Shown here: piece by piece, positions 19,485-26,116 of the stretch | How the letters are laid out: each line of letters opens with the position of its first letter | Numbering within the stretch: the first letter of the stretch is position 1 | From: Anaerolineae bacterium CG2_30_57_67 | Lineage (GTDB): Bacteria; Chloroflexota; Anaerolineae; Anaerolineales; Villigracilaceae | NCBI GenBank assembly: GCA_001872455.1 | Contig: MNXJ01000087.1 | Coordinates: forward strand, 1-42,571 | Direction: 5' to 3' | DNA length: 42,571 nucleotides | Notes under the pieces: model-generated | Told to the model about the DNA's origin: nothing | The model's database searches: none | Seen by the model: the letters and a program-made list of their open reading frames with translations, nothing else | Translations under genes and position numbers: made by a program

Positions 19485-19525
19485 ACATATCACAATTGCT
19501 TTTCTTATTCATTTTTGGAGGAGAA

Positions 19526-20134
19526 ATGGCTCAATTTCAACTGGTGATGCACTCCGGCCCAACCCCCGGTAAGACCTTTCCGCTCGAAGGCGACGTCTTG
19601 ACAATTGGCCGCGAAGCATCCAATCCAATTGCCATCAACGATGCGGAGGTTTCGCGCAAACACACCCAGTTTGTTTTTCAGGGTGGAAAATACATCGTCA
19701 CCGACTTGGGGTCAACCAACGGTACTTTTGTCAATGGAACCCGGCTGACAGGCCAGCAAGTGCTTCAGCCCGGCGATATCATCTCACTCGGCGAACAAAT
19801 CAACCTGCTTTATGAGGCAGTGCAAGTCATTGATCCAAACGCCACCATCATTTCGTCCTCTTCCGCCCGCGTAATGCCTGCTCCTGCCGCACCAGCGCCC
19901 GTAGTGCGGCCAGCAGCGCAACCCGTCTACGCCGGGCAAATTCCCGCCAGTCCGCAGCCTGCCTACACACCCGTCCCGTCCGCAAAAAAAGGCGGCTTGC
20001 CCATCCCAGCCATCCTCGCGGGTGTGGTGTTGTTGTGCGCTGTTTGCGCTTGCGCCGCATTCTTGTGGTATGTGGATAGCAGCGGCGCGTGGTGCAATTT
20101 CTTTCCCTTCCTGTTCGGCTCATCCTGCGGATAG
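19526..20134 (+). CDS. FHA-domain membrane protein
   Basis: 202 residues. The FHA domain (residues 5-95) binds phospho-Thr; R29, S43-R44-x-H46 and the N-G of DLGSTNGTFVNG are intact. An Ala/Pro linker follows to residue 155, then one transmembrane helix (IPAILAGVVLLCAVCACAAFL) and a short Cys-containing extracytoplasmic tail. GGAGGAG precedes the start. With its own promoter and terminator it forms a single-gene unit immediately before the kinase operon, and is a likely membrane docking site for targets of that kinase. Confidence 0.9.
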   Translation: MAQFQLVMHSGPTPGKTFPLEGDVLTIGREASNPIAINDAEVSRKHTQFVFQGGKYIVTDLGSTNGTFVNGTRLTGQQVLQPGDIISLGEQINLLYEAVQVIDPNATIISSSSARVMPAPAAPAPVVRPAAQPVYAGQIPASPQPAYTPVPSAKKGGLPIPAILAGVVLLCAVCACAAFLWYVDSSGAWCNFFPFLFGSSCG

Positions 20135-20152: not shown

Positions 20153-20190
20153 CTTGGAGCGGGAGGAAACTCCCGCTCCAAGTTTTTTAG
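20153..20190 (+). terminator. Rho-independent terminator after FHA gene
   Basis: A perfect 13-bp GC-rich stem (20153-20165 with 20170-20182), loop GAAA, then T6. It clearly ends the FHA unit and separates it from the kinase operon. Confidence 0.9.
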
Positions 20191-20234: not shown

Positions 20235-20264
20235 TTGTCATTCAAGAGCGGGATGGGCTATAAT
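20235..20264 (+). promoter_or_regulatory. Promoter of kinase-phosphatase operon
   Basis: TTGTCA at 20235-20240, 18 bases, then TATAAT at 20259-20264. The predicted leader is about 45-50 bases to the ATG at 20318. Confidence 0.7.
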
Positions 20265-20317
20265 CCCTCCCATCTATTTTTTTTCTCATTCCTTTTTGTT
20301 AAGCCTTTTTGGTGGTT

Positions 20318-22198
20318 ATGGAAACAAAGCACATTGATGGGTCTGTTGGCATAGAAAAACGCACTACCACCGGACAGCTCGCTTCTGGAACCAATCTTGG
20401 CAATCGCTATGTGGTTCAAGAAGTGATTGGTGTGGGTGGTATGGGGTCAGTTTATCGCGCCCGCGATTTGCACTTTCCCAATGTCGTCAAACTGGTGGCG
20501 GTCAAAGAGATGATTAACCAGGCGCCTGACCCGTTGGTCCGGCAGACGATTGTGCAAAACTTTGAGCGCGAGGCCAATATTTTGGCAACACTCAGCCACC
20601 CGTCCATTCCCCGCATTTACGATTACTTCACCCTTGAAAACCGCTCCTATCTGGTCCTGGAGTTTATCAACGGCAAAGATTTGGAAACGGTTCTGGCGCA
20701 AAGCGAAGGCTTTTTGCCGGAAGAACAGGTGCTTGCCTGGGGAATTGAACTGTGCGACGTGATTGCCTTCTTGCACGGCCACAAGCCTGATCCGATTATT
20801 TTCCGTGATATGAAGCCATCCAATGTGATGATTAACCAGCACAATCACATTATTTTGGTAGATTTTGGCATCGCCAAATCTTTTCAGGTCGGTCAAAAAG
20901 GCACGATGATTGGCACGGAAGGCTATTCACCGCCGGAGCAATATCGCGGCGAAGCCAACACACAAGCAGATATTTACGCCCTTGGTGCAACCATGCATCA
21001 CCTGCTCACCCGCCGCGACCCGCGCCTGGAAGCGCCGTTCTCGTTTGCTGAGCGCCCGGTGCGCAAAATCAATCCTAACGTAAGCATTGAAATTGAGGCA
21101 GTCATCAATACCGCATTGCAATACAATGCGTCAGATCGTTTCAAACGTATTGAAGACTTTAAAAGCGCTTTGATGAGCGCCGGAAAAAAAACGGGCATGC
21201 TCCAGCATGTTGCCCCAGTTGCGCCTGTTATTCAGGCTGGCGGCATCAAACCCATCTGGACATTTCAGTGCGAAGATGAAATTCGCGGCAGTTCGATGGT
21301 GTATAACGGCGCTGTTTACACCGGTTGCTACGACAATAACCTCTACGCTCTCAACGCCGCCACTGGTGAATTTATTTGGAAGTATGCTGCCGAGGGTGGC
21401 ATCGTCAGCCGTCCTGCCGCGTATGAAGATATCGTCTATTTTGGCTCTGAAGACCATCGTGTTCATGCCGTCAGCGCCCGTTCTGGCAAGGTGGCGTGGA
21501 TGTATTACACCGATGATCGGGTGCGTTCCTCGCCGCGCGTTGCCGAAGGCCACTTGTTCATCGGCTCGGACGACAAATTTTTACACGCCATCAACCTGAC
21601 AACCGGTCGCCGCGCCTGGACATTTGACACCGGTGCAGAAATTCGCGGTACCCCGTTTGTCATTAACGACCTGGTTTTTTTTGGCAATGAAGCGGGTGAT
21701 TTTTTTGCGCTTAATTTTCACGGGCAAATCAAATGGCGCTATAAAGCCAAGCGCAACATCACTTCATCGCCCTGGGTGCAGGATAACGTCGCCTATTTCA
21801 ACTCCATGGACGGCTACATGTACGCGCTGGATGCCCGCACCGGCTTTTTACTGTGGCGTTTTCGAATGGACAAACCATCCATTGTTTCGCCCATTGTGAA
21901 TGATGGTATTATTTTTACCGGCTCAGCGGATGGTTATATTTATGCGGTGGAAGCCAAAAGCGCCAAAGAAATTTGGCGCTACAAAACCGAACATCAGGTT
22001 AACGGTTCCCCTGTTATTTACCGCGATGCGCTGTACTGCGGCTCGGTAGATGGCAATCTGTATTGCCTGGAATATCGCACAGGCCGCCTGCGCTGGAAAT
22101 TTGCCACAAAAGGCCCCATCACTGCCGCGCCGCTGGCTTATGACGATATTATTTATGTTGGCTCGCATGATCACTACATCTACGCATTGTTGGCCTAA
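20318..22198 (+). CDS. Ser/Thr kinase fused to eight-repeat PQQ-type propeller
   Basis: 626 residues. The Hanks-type kinase domain spans about 31-290: glycine loop GVGGMGSVYRARD, K63 in AVKEM, R163-D164 in IIFRDMKPSNVM, N169, DFG at 182-184 and an SPPEQY motif. No transmembrane helix follows. Residues 308-626 hold eight repeats of about 40 residues (pattern SP-x-YFGS-D-YALDA-TG-x-WRY), a PQQ/YncE-like beta-propeller that probably closes by joining its two ends. The whole protein should be cytoplasmic, with the propeller recruiting substrates or sensing a ligand. The ATG at 20318 is preferred; TTG and GTG codons just upstream are alternatives. First gene of the operon. Confidence 0.92.
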   Translation: METKHIDGSVGIEKRTTTGQLASGTNLGNRYVVQEVIGVGGMGSVYRARDLHFPNVVKLVAVKEMINQAPDPLVRQTIVQNFEREANILATLSHPSIPRIYDYFTLENRSYLVLEFINGKDLETVLAQSEGFLPEEQVLAWGIELCDVIAFLHGHKPDPIIFRDMKPSNVMINQHNHIILVDFGIAKSFQVGQKGTMIGTEGYSPPEQYRGEANTQADIYALGATMHHLLTRRDPRLEAPFSFAERPVRKINPNVSIEIEAVINTALQYNASDRFKRIEDFKSALMSAGKKTGMLQHVAPVAPVIQAGGIKPIWTFQCEDEIRGSSMVYNGAVYTGCYDNNLYALNAATGEFIWKYAAEGGIVSRPAAYEDIVYFGSEDHRVHAVSARSGKVAWMYYTDDRVRSSPRVAEGHLFIGSDDKFLHAINLTTGRRAWTFDTGAEIRGTPFVINDLVFFGNEAGDFFALNFHGQIKWRYKAKRNITSSPWVQDNVAYFNSMDGYMYALDARTGFLLWRFRMDKPSIVSPIVNDGIIFTGSADGYIYAVEAKSAKEIWRYKTEHQVNGSPVIYRDALYCGSVDGNLYCLEYRTGRLRWKFATKGPITAAPLAYDDIIYVGSHDHYIYALLA

Positions 22199-22221: not shown

Positions 22222-23136
22222 GTGCTTAAATTTTTTGATAAACTTCGCAGTCTTTTCAACAAAAAAGAACCGGAAAAACCCGCGCTGGACAACATCGTCA
22301 CTGCGCCGCTTTCAGACGCGCAGTTGCAGTCCATCAAAGCGCTCAGCGCCCATCGCTATGAGCCAATGCAACTGATTGCGACCAGCGCTCAATCCGTTGG
22401 GCGTCAGCGCGAATTGAACGAAGACAGCCTGTTTTGCCTTTCGACCACCATTGCCGGAAACACCAGCAACCCGCCTTTTGGTCTGTACATCATTGCGGAT
22501 GGAATGGGCGGCCACCAATACGGCGAAATCGCCAGCAACACCGCCATTCGAGTCATTGCTGGCTATGTGCTCAAGAAGTTTCACGATTCGCTTTTCAGCC
22601 TGACAGGGACACCGGTGGAAGAGTCGTTACAAGAGATTCTCCAAGCCGCCACATCTGAAGCGCAAAAAGCGGTCTTACACGAAGCGCCTGGAAGCGGGAC
22701 TACCGTTACCGCCGCGCTGATTGTTGGGCAACAGCTGACTATCGCCCACGTTGGCGATAGCCGCGCCTACCTGATTTACAACGACCAGCGCATGGAAGCC
22801 ATCACCCGCGACCACTCACTGGTGCGCCGCCTGGAAGAGTTGGGGCAAATCACTGCCGCTGAGGCGGCGGTACATCCCCAAAGAAACGTGCTTTACCGCG
22901 CATTGGGACAGGGAGAAACGCTCGAATCTGACATCACCACCACGCCTTTCCCGGTAGGCGGCTATCTTTTGATTTGTACCGACGGGCTATGGGGTGTTGT
23001 TTCCGATAACGAATTGCGCCGTATCCTCAACGAAGGGCCAACCATGCAGCGCGCCTGTCAAAATATGATCGCCGCCGCCAATGCCGCCGGCGGGCCAGAC
23101 AATATCAGTGCAGTGCTTGTGCAATTGCTGGGATAA
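22222..23136 (+). CDS. PP2C-family Ser/Thr phosphatase
   Basis: 304 residues, GTG start with AAGGAG eight bases upstream. PPM metal ligands are visible in NEDSLF, IADGMGGHQYG, CTDGLWGV and GPDNIS; VGDSRAYL and RDHSLV complete the signature. An extension of about 55 residues precedes the domain and carries a basic N-terminal stretch. It should remove phosphates placed by the adjacent kinase, giving a reversible switch. It is 23 bases after the kinase gene and 4 bases before the next gene. Confidence 0.93.
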   Translation: MLKFFDKLRSLFNKKEPEKPALDNIVTAPLSDAQLQSIKALSAHRYEPMQLIATSAQSVGRQRELNEDSLFCLSTTIAGNTSNPPFGLYIIADGMGGHQYGEIASNTAIRVIAGYVLKKFHDSLFSLTGTPVEESLQEILQAATSEAQKAVLHEAPGSGTTVTAALIVGQQLTIAHVGDSRAYLIYNDQRMEAITRDHSLVRRLEELGQITAAEAAVHPQRNVLYRALGQGETLESDITTTPFPVGGYLLICTDGLWGVVSDNELRRILNEGPTMQRACQNMIAAANAAGGPDNISAVLVQLLG

Positions 23137-23140
23137 ATAA

Positions 23141-24628
23141 ATGAAAAATATGGCTTCAGGGCCAAATTTTTACTCCATTCTGGGGCTCCCGCGTTCCGCT
23201 ACGCAGGAGGAAATACGCCACGCCTACCTGCAATCTGCCAAGAAACTTCATCCTGACACCAACGTCGCTGCCGGGGAAACGGAAATTTTTCTGGATGTGC
23301 AACAGGCCTATCAGGTGCTGTCAGATCCACAGCGGCGCGCATCGTACGATGCCACGCTCCCGCCAGAAGTTGAAGAAAAAATTGACAGCCCGGTCAATGC
23401 CTCCGTTCTCATCAGCCGCAAACAAATTCCCAGCGGTGGCGAGACCCAACTGCTCTACATCCTGCTGGAATTTTCGCAGGCCAATGCAGAAGAGGATAAT
23501 GGCACACCTCCTTTGAATATTTGTTTGGCGCTGGATACGTCCACGTCAATGAAGGGTGTCAATCTGGATGTGGTTAAAGCCACAGCGGCGCAATTATTGC
23601 GTCGGATGCGTCCGCAGGACATTTTTTCTGTTATCAGTTTTAATGACCGCGCCGAAGTGATTGTGGTCGCCAGCCGTCAACTCAATCTGCACCGCGCTGA
23701 AAATAAAGTGCAAATGTTGCTGGCTTCGGGTGGCACCGAAATTTTGCGCGGTCTGGAATCTGCGTTGGATGAAGTTCGCCGCTATTCTGGCAAGGGAATG
23801 GTCAATCACGTTATTCTGTTGACGGATGGCCGTACGTATGGCGATGAACAGGCCTGCTACAATCTGGCGCAGCAGGCCGCTCAAGATGGAATTGGCATCA
23901 GCGGGCTGGGGATTGGCAGTAACTGGAATGATGTCTTTCTCGACCAACTAGCCACGCTGACCGGTGGCAATTCCATGTACGTCTCACATCCGCAAGATAT
24001 TGAGCGCCTGCTAAACGAGAAATTTAGCCATTTATCACATTCTTTTGCAGAAAACGTTCTTCTACATTTGGAAGAAACCCCCAAGGCTCAAATTAATTAC
24101 GCTTTCCGCCTGCAACCTGAGGTTGGGCCACTGGCTATTGGCGCAGAAATGCAAGTAGGCCCCATTTTGCATAATACGCCGCTTTCCGTTATTCTGGAAA
24201 TGCAGATTTTTGGCGCAAAATCGGACGGCGAGGTATTAGACCTTTTGCGCGGCAGGGTGGAAATCATCTCGGCCTTGCTTCCTCCCCCGGTTCCAGAAAT
24301 TACACTTAAGGTGGTTATCAGCGCCCAGCGCGACACACACACCGAAACGCCGCCACAATCGTTGGTACAGGCGCTTTCCAAATTGACGCTCTATCGCATT
24401 CAGGAAAAAGCACGCGCGGCGGTAAAACAAGGCGAGTATGCCAAAGCCGCACAAAATTTACAACGCCTGGCAACGCATTTGCTTGGGCAGGGAGAACAAG
24501 CCTTGGCGCATACTATTTTGCTCGAAGTGGAAAACATCGAGAAAAATCAATCTTTCACCGAGTCCGGTGAAAAACAAATCAAGTACGGTACGAGAGCCTT
24601 GCTCCTGCCGTCAGGAGGTCGCAAATGA
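23141..24628 (+). CDS. J-domain fused to von Willebrand factor A domain
   Basis: 495 residues. Residues 8-72 are a DnaJ-type J domain with the Hsp70-activating H37-P-D39 (KLHPDTN) and QQAYQVLSDPQRRASYD. A beta-rich strand region is followed by a VWA domain from about residue 125 with an intact MIDAS: D132-x-S134-x-S136, T199 (SGGTEI) and D229 (LLTDGRTYGD). A further 200-residue region has a beta part and C-terminal helices resembling TPR (ARAAVKQGEYAKAAQNLQRL). No signal peptide or membrane helix. It may present metal-dependent ligands to DnaK. M4 is an alternative start. Confidence 0.88.
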   Translation: MKNMASGPNFYSILGLPRSATQEEIRHAYLQSAKKLHPDTNVAAGETEIFLDVQQAYQVLSDPQRRASYDATLPPEVEEKIDSPVNASVLISRKQIPSGGETQLLYILLEFSQANAEEDNGTPPLNICLALDTSTSMKGVNLDVVKATAAQLLRRMRPQDIFSVISFNDRAEVIVVASRQLNLHRAENKVQMLLASGGTEILRGLESALDEVRRYSGKGMVNHVILLTDGRTYGDEQACYNLAQQAAQDGIGISGLGIGSNWNDVFLDQLATLTGGNSMYVSHPQDIERLLNEKFSHLSHSFAENVLLHLEETPKAQINYAFRLQPEVGPLAIGAEMQVGPILHNTPLSVILEMQIFGAKSDGEVLDLLRGRVEIISALLPPPVPEITLKVVISAQRDTHTETPPQSLVQALSKLTLYRIQEKARAAVKQGEYAKAAQNLQRLATHLLGQGEQALAHTILLEVENIEKNQSFTESGEKQIKYGTRALLLPSGGRK

Positions 24629-25122
24629 TCATCTGCCCCAGTTGTAAACATGAAGAACCCTCTGGGGCGATTTTCTGCAGCGAATGTGGTATGCAAATCG
24701 TTGAATTTGAGTCGAAACAGACGCAGCAAATCACTGGTGACCAGAGCGACCTCGGTACAGATCCAATCGAAAGTGCCCCTCAACAGATTGGAAGCGACTG
24801 GATTACCCTGCATTTACTTGATAGCGGGCAAATGTTGCCGATTAGTGATCGCACTGAATTTACCTTGGGACGTATCAGCGACAATCAACCCATTATGCCT
24901 GATGTTGACCTGACGCCATATCGGGCCTATGACCACGGTATTTCTCGTTTGCATGCTGTTATCAAAAGTATCAACGGAAAAGCCATCGTCATGGACCTTG
25001 GCTCGTCCAACGGAACCTACCTAAACGGGACCCGCCTGATGCCTAACATCGAGACCCCTCTGCGGCATGGCGATGTGATTGCTCTGGGAAAGCTAAAGAT
25101 GCAAGTCATTTTATCGGCCTAA
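24625..25122 (+). CDS. Zinc-ribbon FHA protein
   Basis: 165 residues. A zinc ribbon at the N-terminus (C4, C7, C18, C21) is joined by an acidic/Gln-rich linker to an FHA domain (about 68-160) with LGRISDN, ISRLHAVI and DLGSSNGTYLNGT, so phospho-Thr binding residues are intact. The start overlaps the preceding stop (ATGA) and the two are probably translated together. As a soluble reader next to the kinase and phosphatase, it may bridge phosphorylated proteins to a partner of the zinc ribbon. Confidence 0.9.
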   Translation: MIICPSCKHEEPSGAIFCSECGMQIVEFESKQTQQITGDQSDLGTDPIESAPQQIGSDWITLHLLDSGQMLPISDRTEFTLGRISDNQPIMPDVDLTPYRAYDHGISRLHAVIKSINGKAIVMDLGSSNGTYLNGTRLMPNIETPLRHGDVIALGKLKMQVILSA

Positions 25123-25133
25123 GGAGCAAATTC

Positions 25134-25373
25134 ATGCCATCCGTATTAATTCATATCGCCAACGAAGACCCAGTATTGGGTGAAATTGAGCAGCTTCCCG
25201 CCGCCAATGACACTATCATTCTGGTAAAAAACCCCCGGCGGCGTGACGGTAAAGACCTGATTTACTTGCTTGCCAATGTCACCCAGGTTATTTGGCCGAT
25301 GACGCGTGTTAGTTTCATCGAACTGCTTCCCGGAGATGACGAAGAAGAATTGGTCTCCTTCATCCGCGAGTAA
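25134..25373 (+). CDS. Small acidic hypothetical protein
   Basis: 79 residues, preceded by AAGGAG with good spacing. Begins [19 protein letters not shown] and ends [13 protein letters not shown]. Predicted alpha/beta with no membrane helix and no motif that I recognise. It lies 11 bases after the FHA gene and 5 before the OmpR-type regulator, so it belongs to the operon. The product may be an adaptor. Confidence 0.7.
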
Positions 25374-25378
25374 AACCC

Positions 25379-26116
25379 ATGCCTGAAGAATCTGAGCATA
25401 GAAAAATCCTTGTTGTAGACGATGAAGAGCGCATGGTGCGCTTTATTCGCATGAATCTGGAGCATGATGGCTTCCTGGTCGGCGAAGCCTTCAACGGCAA
25501 GCAAGCCGTGCAAAAACTGCGCGACATGACTCCCGACCTGATTCTGTTGGACGTAATGATGCCTGACATGAACGGCTTTGATGTTTTGGAAATTGTGCGA
25601 GAAATCAGTAATGTGCCCGTTATCATGCTGACCGCCAAGGGCGAAGAAGACGATCGCGTGCGCGGCCTGGAGCTGGGCGCGGACGATTACGTCACCAAGC
25701 CTTTCAGCCCACGCGAGTTGGTCAGCCGCGTGAAAGCCGTCTTGCGCCGCACGGAAGGTGTTAGCGGCTCGATGCACGGCCTGTTGGAAATTGACGAACG
25801 CTTGAAAATTGACTTTGACCGCCGTGAAGTTTGGTTGGAAGGGAAAACTGTCAGGCTGCGCCCAACCGAATATCGCCTGCTTTTTCATCTGGTGCAAAAT
25901 GCCGGCTGGGTGGTTTCACATGACCAGCTGCTGGCAAAAGTATGGGGCTACGAATATAACAACGAACCGCACTATGTGCGTCTGTATATTAATTATCTGC
26001 GCCAAAAACTGGAAAAAGACCCGGCCAACCCAAAATACATTCTCACTGAACGGGCAGTAGGCTACCGGTTCGTGGATTTTCGAGGTGACAAACTGCACAG
26101 CGTGGCGCAAGGTTAA
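25379..26116 (+). CDS. OmpR/PhoB-family response regulator
   Basis: 245 residues. REC domain with D14-D15, phosphoacceptor D58, T85 and K107, and a winged-helix DNA-binding domain at about 135-235 ([37 protein letters not shown]). No histidine kinase is adjacent, so it may be controlled by the Ser/Thr kinase, by the unlinked soluble kinase at 15528, or from elsewhere. It is the last gene of the operon; a strong terminator follows. Confidence 0.93.

Follow-up and report, generated by a model that had tools for sequence, protein, structure and literature searches.

The question raised by this locus is what a J domain and a VWA domain do together in one bacterial protein, and whether Hsp70 has a part in it. 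The window, which is the whole stretch of 42,571 nucleotides of Anaerolineae bacterium CG2_30_57_67 that was analysed, contains at 23141..24628 on the forward strand an open reading frame that begins with ATG and encodes 495 amino acids; all features named below are on the same strand. The original prediction had placed an HPD motif and a MIDAS together in this single 495-residue polypeptide, and both the Pfam annotation and a check of the residues agree with it. Residues 9-70 match the DnaJ family (Pfam: PF00226, E 1.4e-20) and the J domain as a whole, with its helices present in the structural model, covers residues 8-73 (23162..23359), with the HPD motif at residues 37-39 (23249-23257). The VWA match (Pfam: PF00092, E 8.2e-17) covers residues 126-288 of a VWA domain at residues 124-300 (23510..24040), whose MIDAS is intact with DxSxS at 132-136 (D132, S134 and S136), T199 and D229. 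Having a J domain with HPD, the protein is a J-domain protein, which we take to belong to class C. No long hydrophobic segment was seen on reading its sequence. The top NCBIfam match, TIGR03788 (marine sortase target protein, E 9.2e-26), was rejected, since its score of 90 bits, where the cut-off is 552, indicates a VWA core in common and not membership.

The J-VWA protein is the sole full-length match in its own 2.99-Mb genome. All 25 family genomes, its own among them, have a near full-length match, and HPD and MIDAS are both retained in all 25 sequences, so the fusion is not a product of chance. In the tree, the family sequences group with two named relatives in a single clade (support 99/99); three named relatives carry the label Anaerolineae or Anaerolineales, and Chloroflexota in the tree. 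Candidate relatives on mobile elements were rejected: 330 plasmid records matched, none of them with 80% of the J-VWA protein covered at a single place, and none of 47 pattern matches on viral contigs is a relative.

The C-terminus had been predicted to be TPR-like. This did not hold, as no TPR family is among the Pfam matches and the model (pLDDT 90) predicts a beta-sandwich, with strands up to residue 396, and a helical bundle (residues 406-486 in the model, within a segment annotated as 404-488, 24350..24604), which by model, fold and profile comparison is the counterpart of the ArnB bundle. The best match in the fold search was the VWA protein of Catenulispora (PDB: 4fx5, Z 34.4), and the ArnB chain 8s05_B was aligned with Z 30.6 and RMSD 4.0 over 371 residues, in the model range 83-490. 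Lower scores were obtained for the ArnB paralogue 5a8j (Z 26.3), for inter-alpha-inhibitor heavy chain 1 (Z 25.3) and for single VWA domains (Z 25.1 or lower), and the Foldseek list for the same model includes Sec23/24 with an E-value of about 1e-11. When the core of the J-VWA protein was searched alone, its best PDB match was 8s05_A (E 9.8e-10), spanning the VWA domain and the first part of the sandwich. A profile built from 47 homologues with and without J matched ArnB with E 1.5e-26, reaching into the helical bundle, and the Catenulispora VWA protein with E 8.1e-27. The model therefore has the VWA domain, the beta-sandwich and the C-terminal helical bundle of an ArnB-type protein, and the zinc-finger/FHA partner typical of ArnB is encoded directly downstream. 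ArnB consists of the three domains without an N-terminal J domain, and the ArnB match does not include the J domain; hence we call the J-VWA protein ArnB-like and not ArnB.

Five genes make up the operon. A Ser/Thr kinase with a C-terminal PQQ-type beta-propeller (Pfam; 20309..22198) and a PP2C phosphatase (Pfam and NCBIfam; 22222..23136) are found upstream of the J-VWA gene, and an ArnA-like protein with a zinc ribbon and an FHA domain (Pfam; 24625..25122), whose gene overlaps the J-VWA gene by 4 bases, is found downstream, followed by a conserved 79-amino acid protein (25134..25373), recognised by its conserved position after the FHA gene. The next gene, a conserved neighbour, encodes an OmpR-type response regulator (Pfam; 25379..26116), which is perhaps outside the switch itself and could at most be a lead to what the switch controls. 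The original prediction had noted that the operon lacks a MoxR ATPase, and indeed no AAA/MoxR family is among the Pfam matches of the five operon proteins. Its suggestion that Hsp70 stands in for MoxR fared less well: the best relatives are the Catenulispora VWA protein and ArnB, no tie to MoxR was found, and what is conserved around the gene is a kinase, a phosphatase and a zinc-ribbon/FHA protein instead. There is no Hsp70 gene within the operon.

Before the kinase gene, a terminator-like hairpin (20153-20182) is followed by a promoter-like site (20235-20264), and it is possible that the transcription unit starts there; both are consensus matches only, and the region totals of 8 promoter-like and 13 terminator-like sites are near the shuffle means of 5.5 and 9.0. 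With such a start, the gene at 19496-20134, upstream of the operon, would be separate. Its product is another FHA protein, hydrophobic in a stretch at the C-terminus, and the gene possibly forms its own transcription unit.

The gene order of the operon recurs across Anaerolineae. Among 54 J-bearing loci the propeller kinase is upstream in 53, PP2C directly upstream of the J-VWA gene in 51, the zinc-ribbon/FHA gene directly downstream (<150 bases) in 53 and the OmpR-type regulator downstream in 47. Exceptions are L036, which has only about 140 bases upstream, and L132, with about 490 bases downstream; L154 and L155 have no PP2C within the stretch examined. For the 27 J-less proteins, the zinc-ribbon/FHA gene is directly downstream of 25, a propeller kinase was found for 12, another kinase upstream for 9 and PP2C upstream for 22. 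At 66 of 81 loci the FHA gene is followed by the gene for the 79-amino acid protein. This small gene is present in 52 of the 54 J loci, the remaining two ending before or near its position, and in 14 of 26 J-less loci, the other 12 being without a detected propeller-type kinase (one of these, L043, has no upstream sequence). The protein has no match in Pfam or NCBIfam, and none of its PDB matches has an E-value below 0.81; judged by its conserved place after the FHA gene, it is probably the fifth part of the system. The J-less ArnB-like paralogues L158, L159, L160, L143 and L161-L163 lie in larger operons, where the kinases are of other kinds, and FHA proteins with several zinc ribbons are found at some of these loci.

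A VWA protein, a PP2C and a kinase are also adjacent in the TerY-P system (PMC11090510), so the operon could be read as a TerY-P-like stress or anti-phage triad and not as an ArnAB-like switch. In the accessible part of that paper the zinc ribbon or OB-fold is on the kinase; here the ribbon is on the FHA protein, and the operon kinase carries a PQQ propeller and neither a zinc ribbon nor an OB-fold. No TerY-named model is among the Pfam and NCBIfam matches, libraries which may hold none, and PADLOC matched only kinase and phosphatase models, with no match for the VWA, FHA and 79-amino acid proteins. Presence in every genome of the family and in one clade is also unlike a scattered defence cassette. 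We give the TerY-P-like reading little credence.

The ArnA-ArnB pair of Sulfolobus offers the closer parallel in partner proteins. According to the available sections of the papers describing it, loose docking by a zinc finger, phosphorylation of the bundle and binding by the FHA domain are its elements (PMC12852372, PMC6509490). The FHA gene of the operon matches ArnA at ranks 2 and 3 of 34 (5a8i, E 3.5e-5; 8s05_C, E 4.1e-5). The match spans only the FHA domain, an Arabidopsis FHA domain scores better (E 1.9e-8), and ArnA is at rank 45 in the fold search with the FHA partner, one of many FHA domains; the tie to ArnA thus rests on make-up and neighbourhood more than on score. Across 28 aligned FHA partners, chosen from 76 found, the FHA residues GR, SRxH and SxNGT and the four zinc cysteines are invariant. 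Searching all 76 with looser patterns returned CxxC..CxxC in 75 and SRxH in 70; the SxNGT pattern, with 41, is an undercount because it was too narrow and missed SANGT. T33, in the linker of the FHA protein (24625-25122), is kept in at least 90% of the 28 partners, with Q next to it in many rows, and one idea is that it is an intramolecular FHA switch site.

On the side of the J-VWA protein, the last helix of the bundle contains a near-invariant T484-R-x-L487 motif (24590..24601). The counts across 82 rows, three of which are gapped there, are 78 for T, 79 for R and 79 for L, which places the motif among the best-conserved pieces of the bundle, in J-bearing and J-less rows alike. TRxL is also found within the last 40 residues of 30 out of 31 further proteins. 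A leucine three residues after a phosphothreonine fits some FHA domains, and on its sequence T484 is a candidate phosphothreonine for the FHA partner. The model places T484 in a helix, and it may be conserved for folding instead. Its candidate counterparts in ArnB are T371 or T375; as the profile alignment ends about 4 residues before T484, our claim is limited to a position in the same last helix as the ArnB threonines.

We favour, with moderate confidence, a VWA/FHA phospho-switch like ArnA-ArnB to which a J domain that recruits DnaK has been added; its switch part is based on homology, and its Hsp70 part is deduced from the J domain. The propeller-sensor kinase would phosphorylate the VWA protein on threonines of its C-terminal helical bundle, and PP2C would remove the phosphate from them. 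The zinc-ribbon/FHA protein would dock loosely via its zinc ribbon, and once the bundle is phosphorylated the FHA domain would grip it tightly. The J domain would recruit DnaK, most likely acting in cis, to the loosened phosphorylated bundle or to a protein held by the VWA MIDAS, and the action of DnaK would reset or remodel the complex. The analysis itself shows the domains, the predicted fold, the gene order and the conservation of HPD, MIDAS, FHA phosphate-binding residues and zinc cysteines; by analogy we infer the Sulfolobus-type chemistry in this operon, T484 as its site and the action of DnaK. The J domain might act on its own bundle, on a VWA-bound protein or otherwise. One version that we find possible, if doubtful, is a self-resetting switch, in which kinase-driven unfolding would make the bundle a DnaK substrate, the J domain would recruit DnaK and Hsp70 would set the lifetime of the FHA-bound state. 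If true, this would couple Ser/Thr kinase signalling directly to the heat-shock chaperone machine in one polypeptide.

The proposed use of Hsp70 depends on the J domain. The original prediction would be in doubt if the N-terminal region were not a J domain on profile comparison or if HPD were not conserved in homologues; neither check refuted it, since the region gives the DnaJ match described above and the J-bearing homologues of two sets keep HPD in 51 of 55 and 27 of 30 cases, 78 of 85 in total. Five segments were compared in a set of 25 close relatives, made up of L033, L034 and the sequences of the family genomes other than L053 and L064 (23 of 25). Mean identity is highest for the J domain, at 0.644 compared to 0.582 for the bundle and 0.572 for VWA, and its median dN/dS is the lowest, 0.13, with only 22 of 300 pairs unsaturated for J. 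The genome itself encodes two full-length Hsp70s, with two weak partial matches in addition, and has only three J-domain matches, the J-VWA protein among them. On the other side, Hsp70 gene number had no relation to the presence of J when 60 genomes were compared by eye: the 9 genomes that have a J-less operon of this type gave 1-3 Hsp70 matches and the others 1-4, contig-end fragments counted. On its sequence, the J-VWA protein is a putative recruiter of Hsp70.

Seven of the 85 J domains (L040, L148, L150, L153, L100, L115 and L120) still match the J profile without HPD, which counts against Hsp70 use. The same phospho-switch could accordingly exist with J as a structural or protein-binding module that makes no use of Hsp70. 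The replacement of basic residues (positions 30, 31 and 51 of the J-VWA protein are L, Q and L and are basic in both DnaJs of its own genome) and the 27 of 82 homologues without J fit such a module as well. Against it stand the HPD motif, intact in all the same-family sequences and in most J-bearing homologues overall, and the slow evolution of J among the close relatives, the slowest of the five segments; we judge a J domain that makes no use of Hsp70 to be rather unlikely. Since it joins this reading to the favoured one, an ArnAB-like switch as such, with or without Hsp70 use by the J domain, is in our view quite probable.

The reverse emphasis would be a dedicated DnaJ-type chaperone, in which VWA binds clients, J passes them to DnaK, much as the VWA protein of a VWA/MoxR pair works with MoxR, and the kinase only tunes the process. 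The MIDAS motifs DxSxS and TDG are retained across the family and the middle threonine motif in most members, and peptide capture by VWA is described for MoxR systems in the part of PMC7159879 available to us, both of which suit a client-binding protein. Such a chaperone does not explain why the FHA reader is so strictly linked or why the TRxL tail is near-invariant, and J-less versions retain the same operon, so we consider it improbable.

The J-VWA profile has a match at E up to 1e-25 in 118 out of 199 genomes of the class, and in at least 67 of the 199 the match starts at profile position 7 or lower, inside the J domain. Outside the class, at least two J-bearing cases from the wider phylum (G243 and G404) are among the matches listed. 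Sixteen genomes of the order outside the family comprise nine with the full J form, one with J without HPD (G034), two that are J-less (G025 and G039) and four with weak or partial matches only.

For the tree of 82 cores, rows were picked from the matches and not at random; L044, with a short VWA match, was excluded and L043 is partial. The 31 further proteins were used solely for the HPD and tail counts. Open reading frame starts are over-extended in L039, L053, L064 and L068. Stops interrupt the match in L060 and L065, and for both the sequence of the open frame was used; in L060 (G006) the stops inside the J-VWA reading-frame match are either an assembly error or real. J is present on 55 rows of the tree; this distribution needs at least 7 changes, compared to a shuffled mean of 23.1, and well-supported branches make at least 3 of the changes unavoidable. 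Of the 62 rows in one clade, 53 have J and 9 do not, and the J row L132 sits on a very long branch. J was therefore gained more than once or lost repeatedly. Twelve of the 27 homologues without J are beside a propeller-type kinase, and as J-less homologues occur in similar operons, J is an optional part of the VWA/FHA phospho-switch.

The constituent domains and the switch are of known kinds. Neither the fusion of J to an ArnB-like protein nor an operon of these five genes, the one for the 79-amino acid protein included, was found in the literature searched, from which most subscription journals were absent, and both may be new; the closest published cases encountered are the GAP1-N2 GTPase systems and the TerY-P triads. 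The propeller kinase is not, as kinases with PQQ repeats are described for Deinococcus and Streptomyces in the consulted part of PMC1262709. The discussion of PMC12852372, in the portion available, places the ArnB architecture in all domains of life, mostly without such multi-phosphorylation; our results suggest that more proteins of this architecture join in it than is stated there. The switch studied in Sulfolobus would gain a bacterial counterpart with kinase, phosphatase, reader and small protein in one operon, and the J-VWA operon would link it to Hsp70, so that one molecule may be the meeting point of protein phosphorylation and chaperone action. The versions that occur in nature, with J, with J but no HPD, and without J, are ready comparisons for the contribution of Hsp70 to the phospho-switch.

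Among known systems, ArnA-ArnB of Sulfolobus (PDB: 8s05, 5a8i, 5a8j; PMC12852372, PMC6509490) has in common with the operon, as far as the available text describes it, the VWA, beta-sandwich and helical bundle, a zinc-finger/FHA partner, a Hanks-type kinase and threonines in the bundle. Here the system is bacterial and in a single operon, a propeller kinase and PP2C take the place of ArnC/ArnD and PP2A, the zinc ribbon has four cysteines where ArnA has a RanBP2-type finger, and the J domain and the 79-amino acid gene are additional. The Catenulispora acidiphila VWA protein (4fx5) has the core fold in common at about 15% identity. The Sec23/Sec24 core of COPII also combines VWA, beta-sandwich and a helical part, at about 11% identity; unlike the J-VWA protein, these are coat proteins with further domains, and we know of no J domain in them. 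The TerY-P triad likewise has VWA, PP2C and Ser/Thr kinase adjacent and a zinc ribbon within the system; that ribbon is on the kinase, and the available part of its description (PMC11090510) does not mention FHA. Of the GAP1-N2 GTPase systems, as covered by the accessible part of PMC7159879, some contain Hsp70 and a DnaJ-domain protein and others a kinase, PP2C and VWA. DnaJ/Hsp70 and kinase/PP2C/VWA are separate neighbourhoods there, whereas J and VWA are here joined in one polypeptide.
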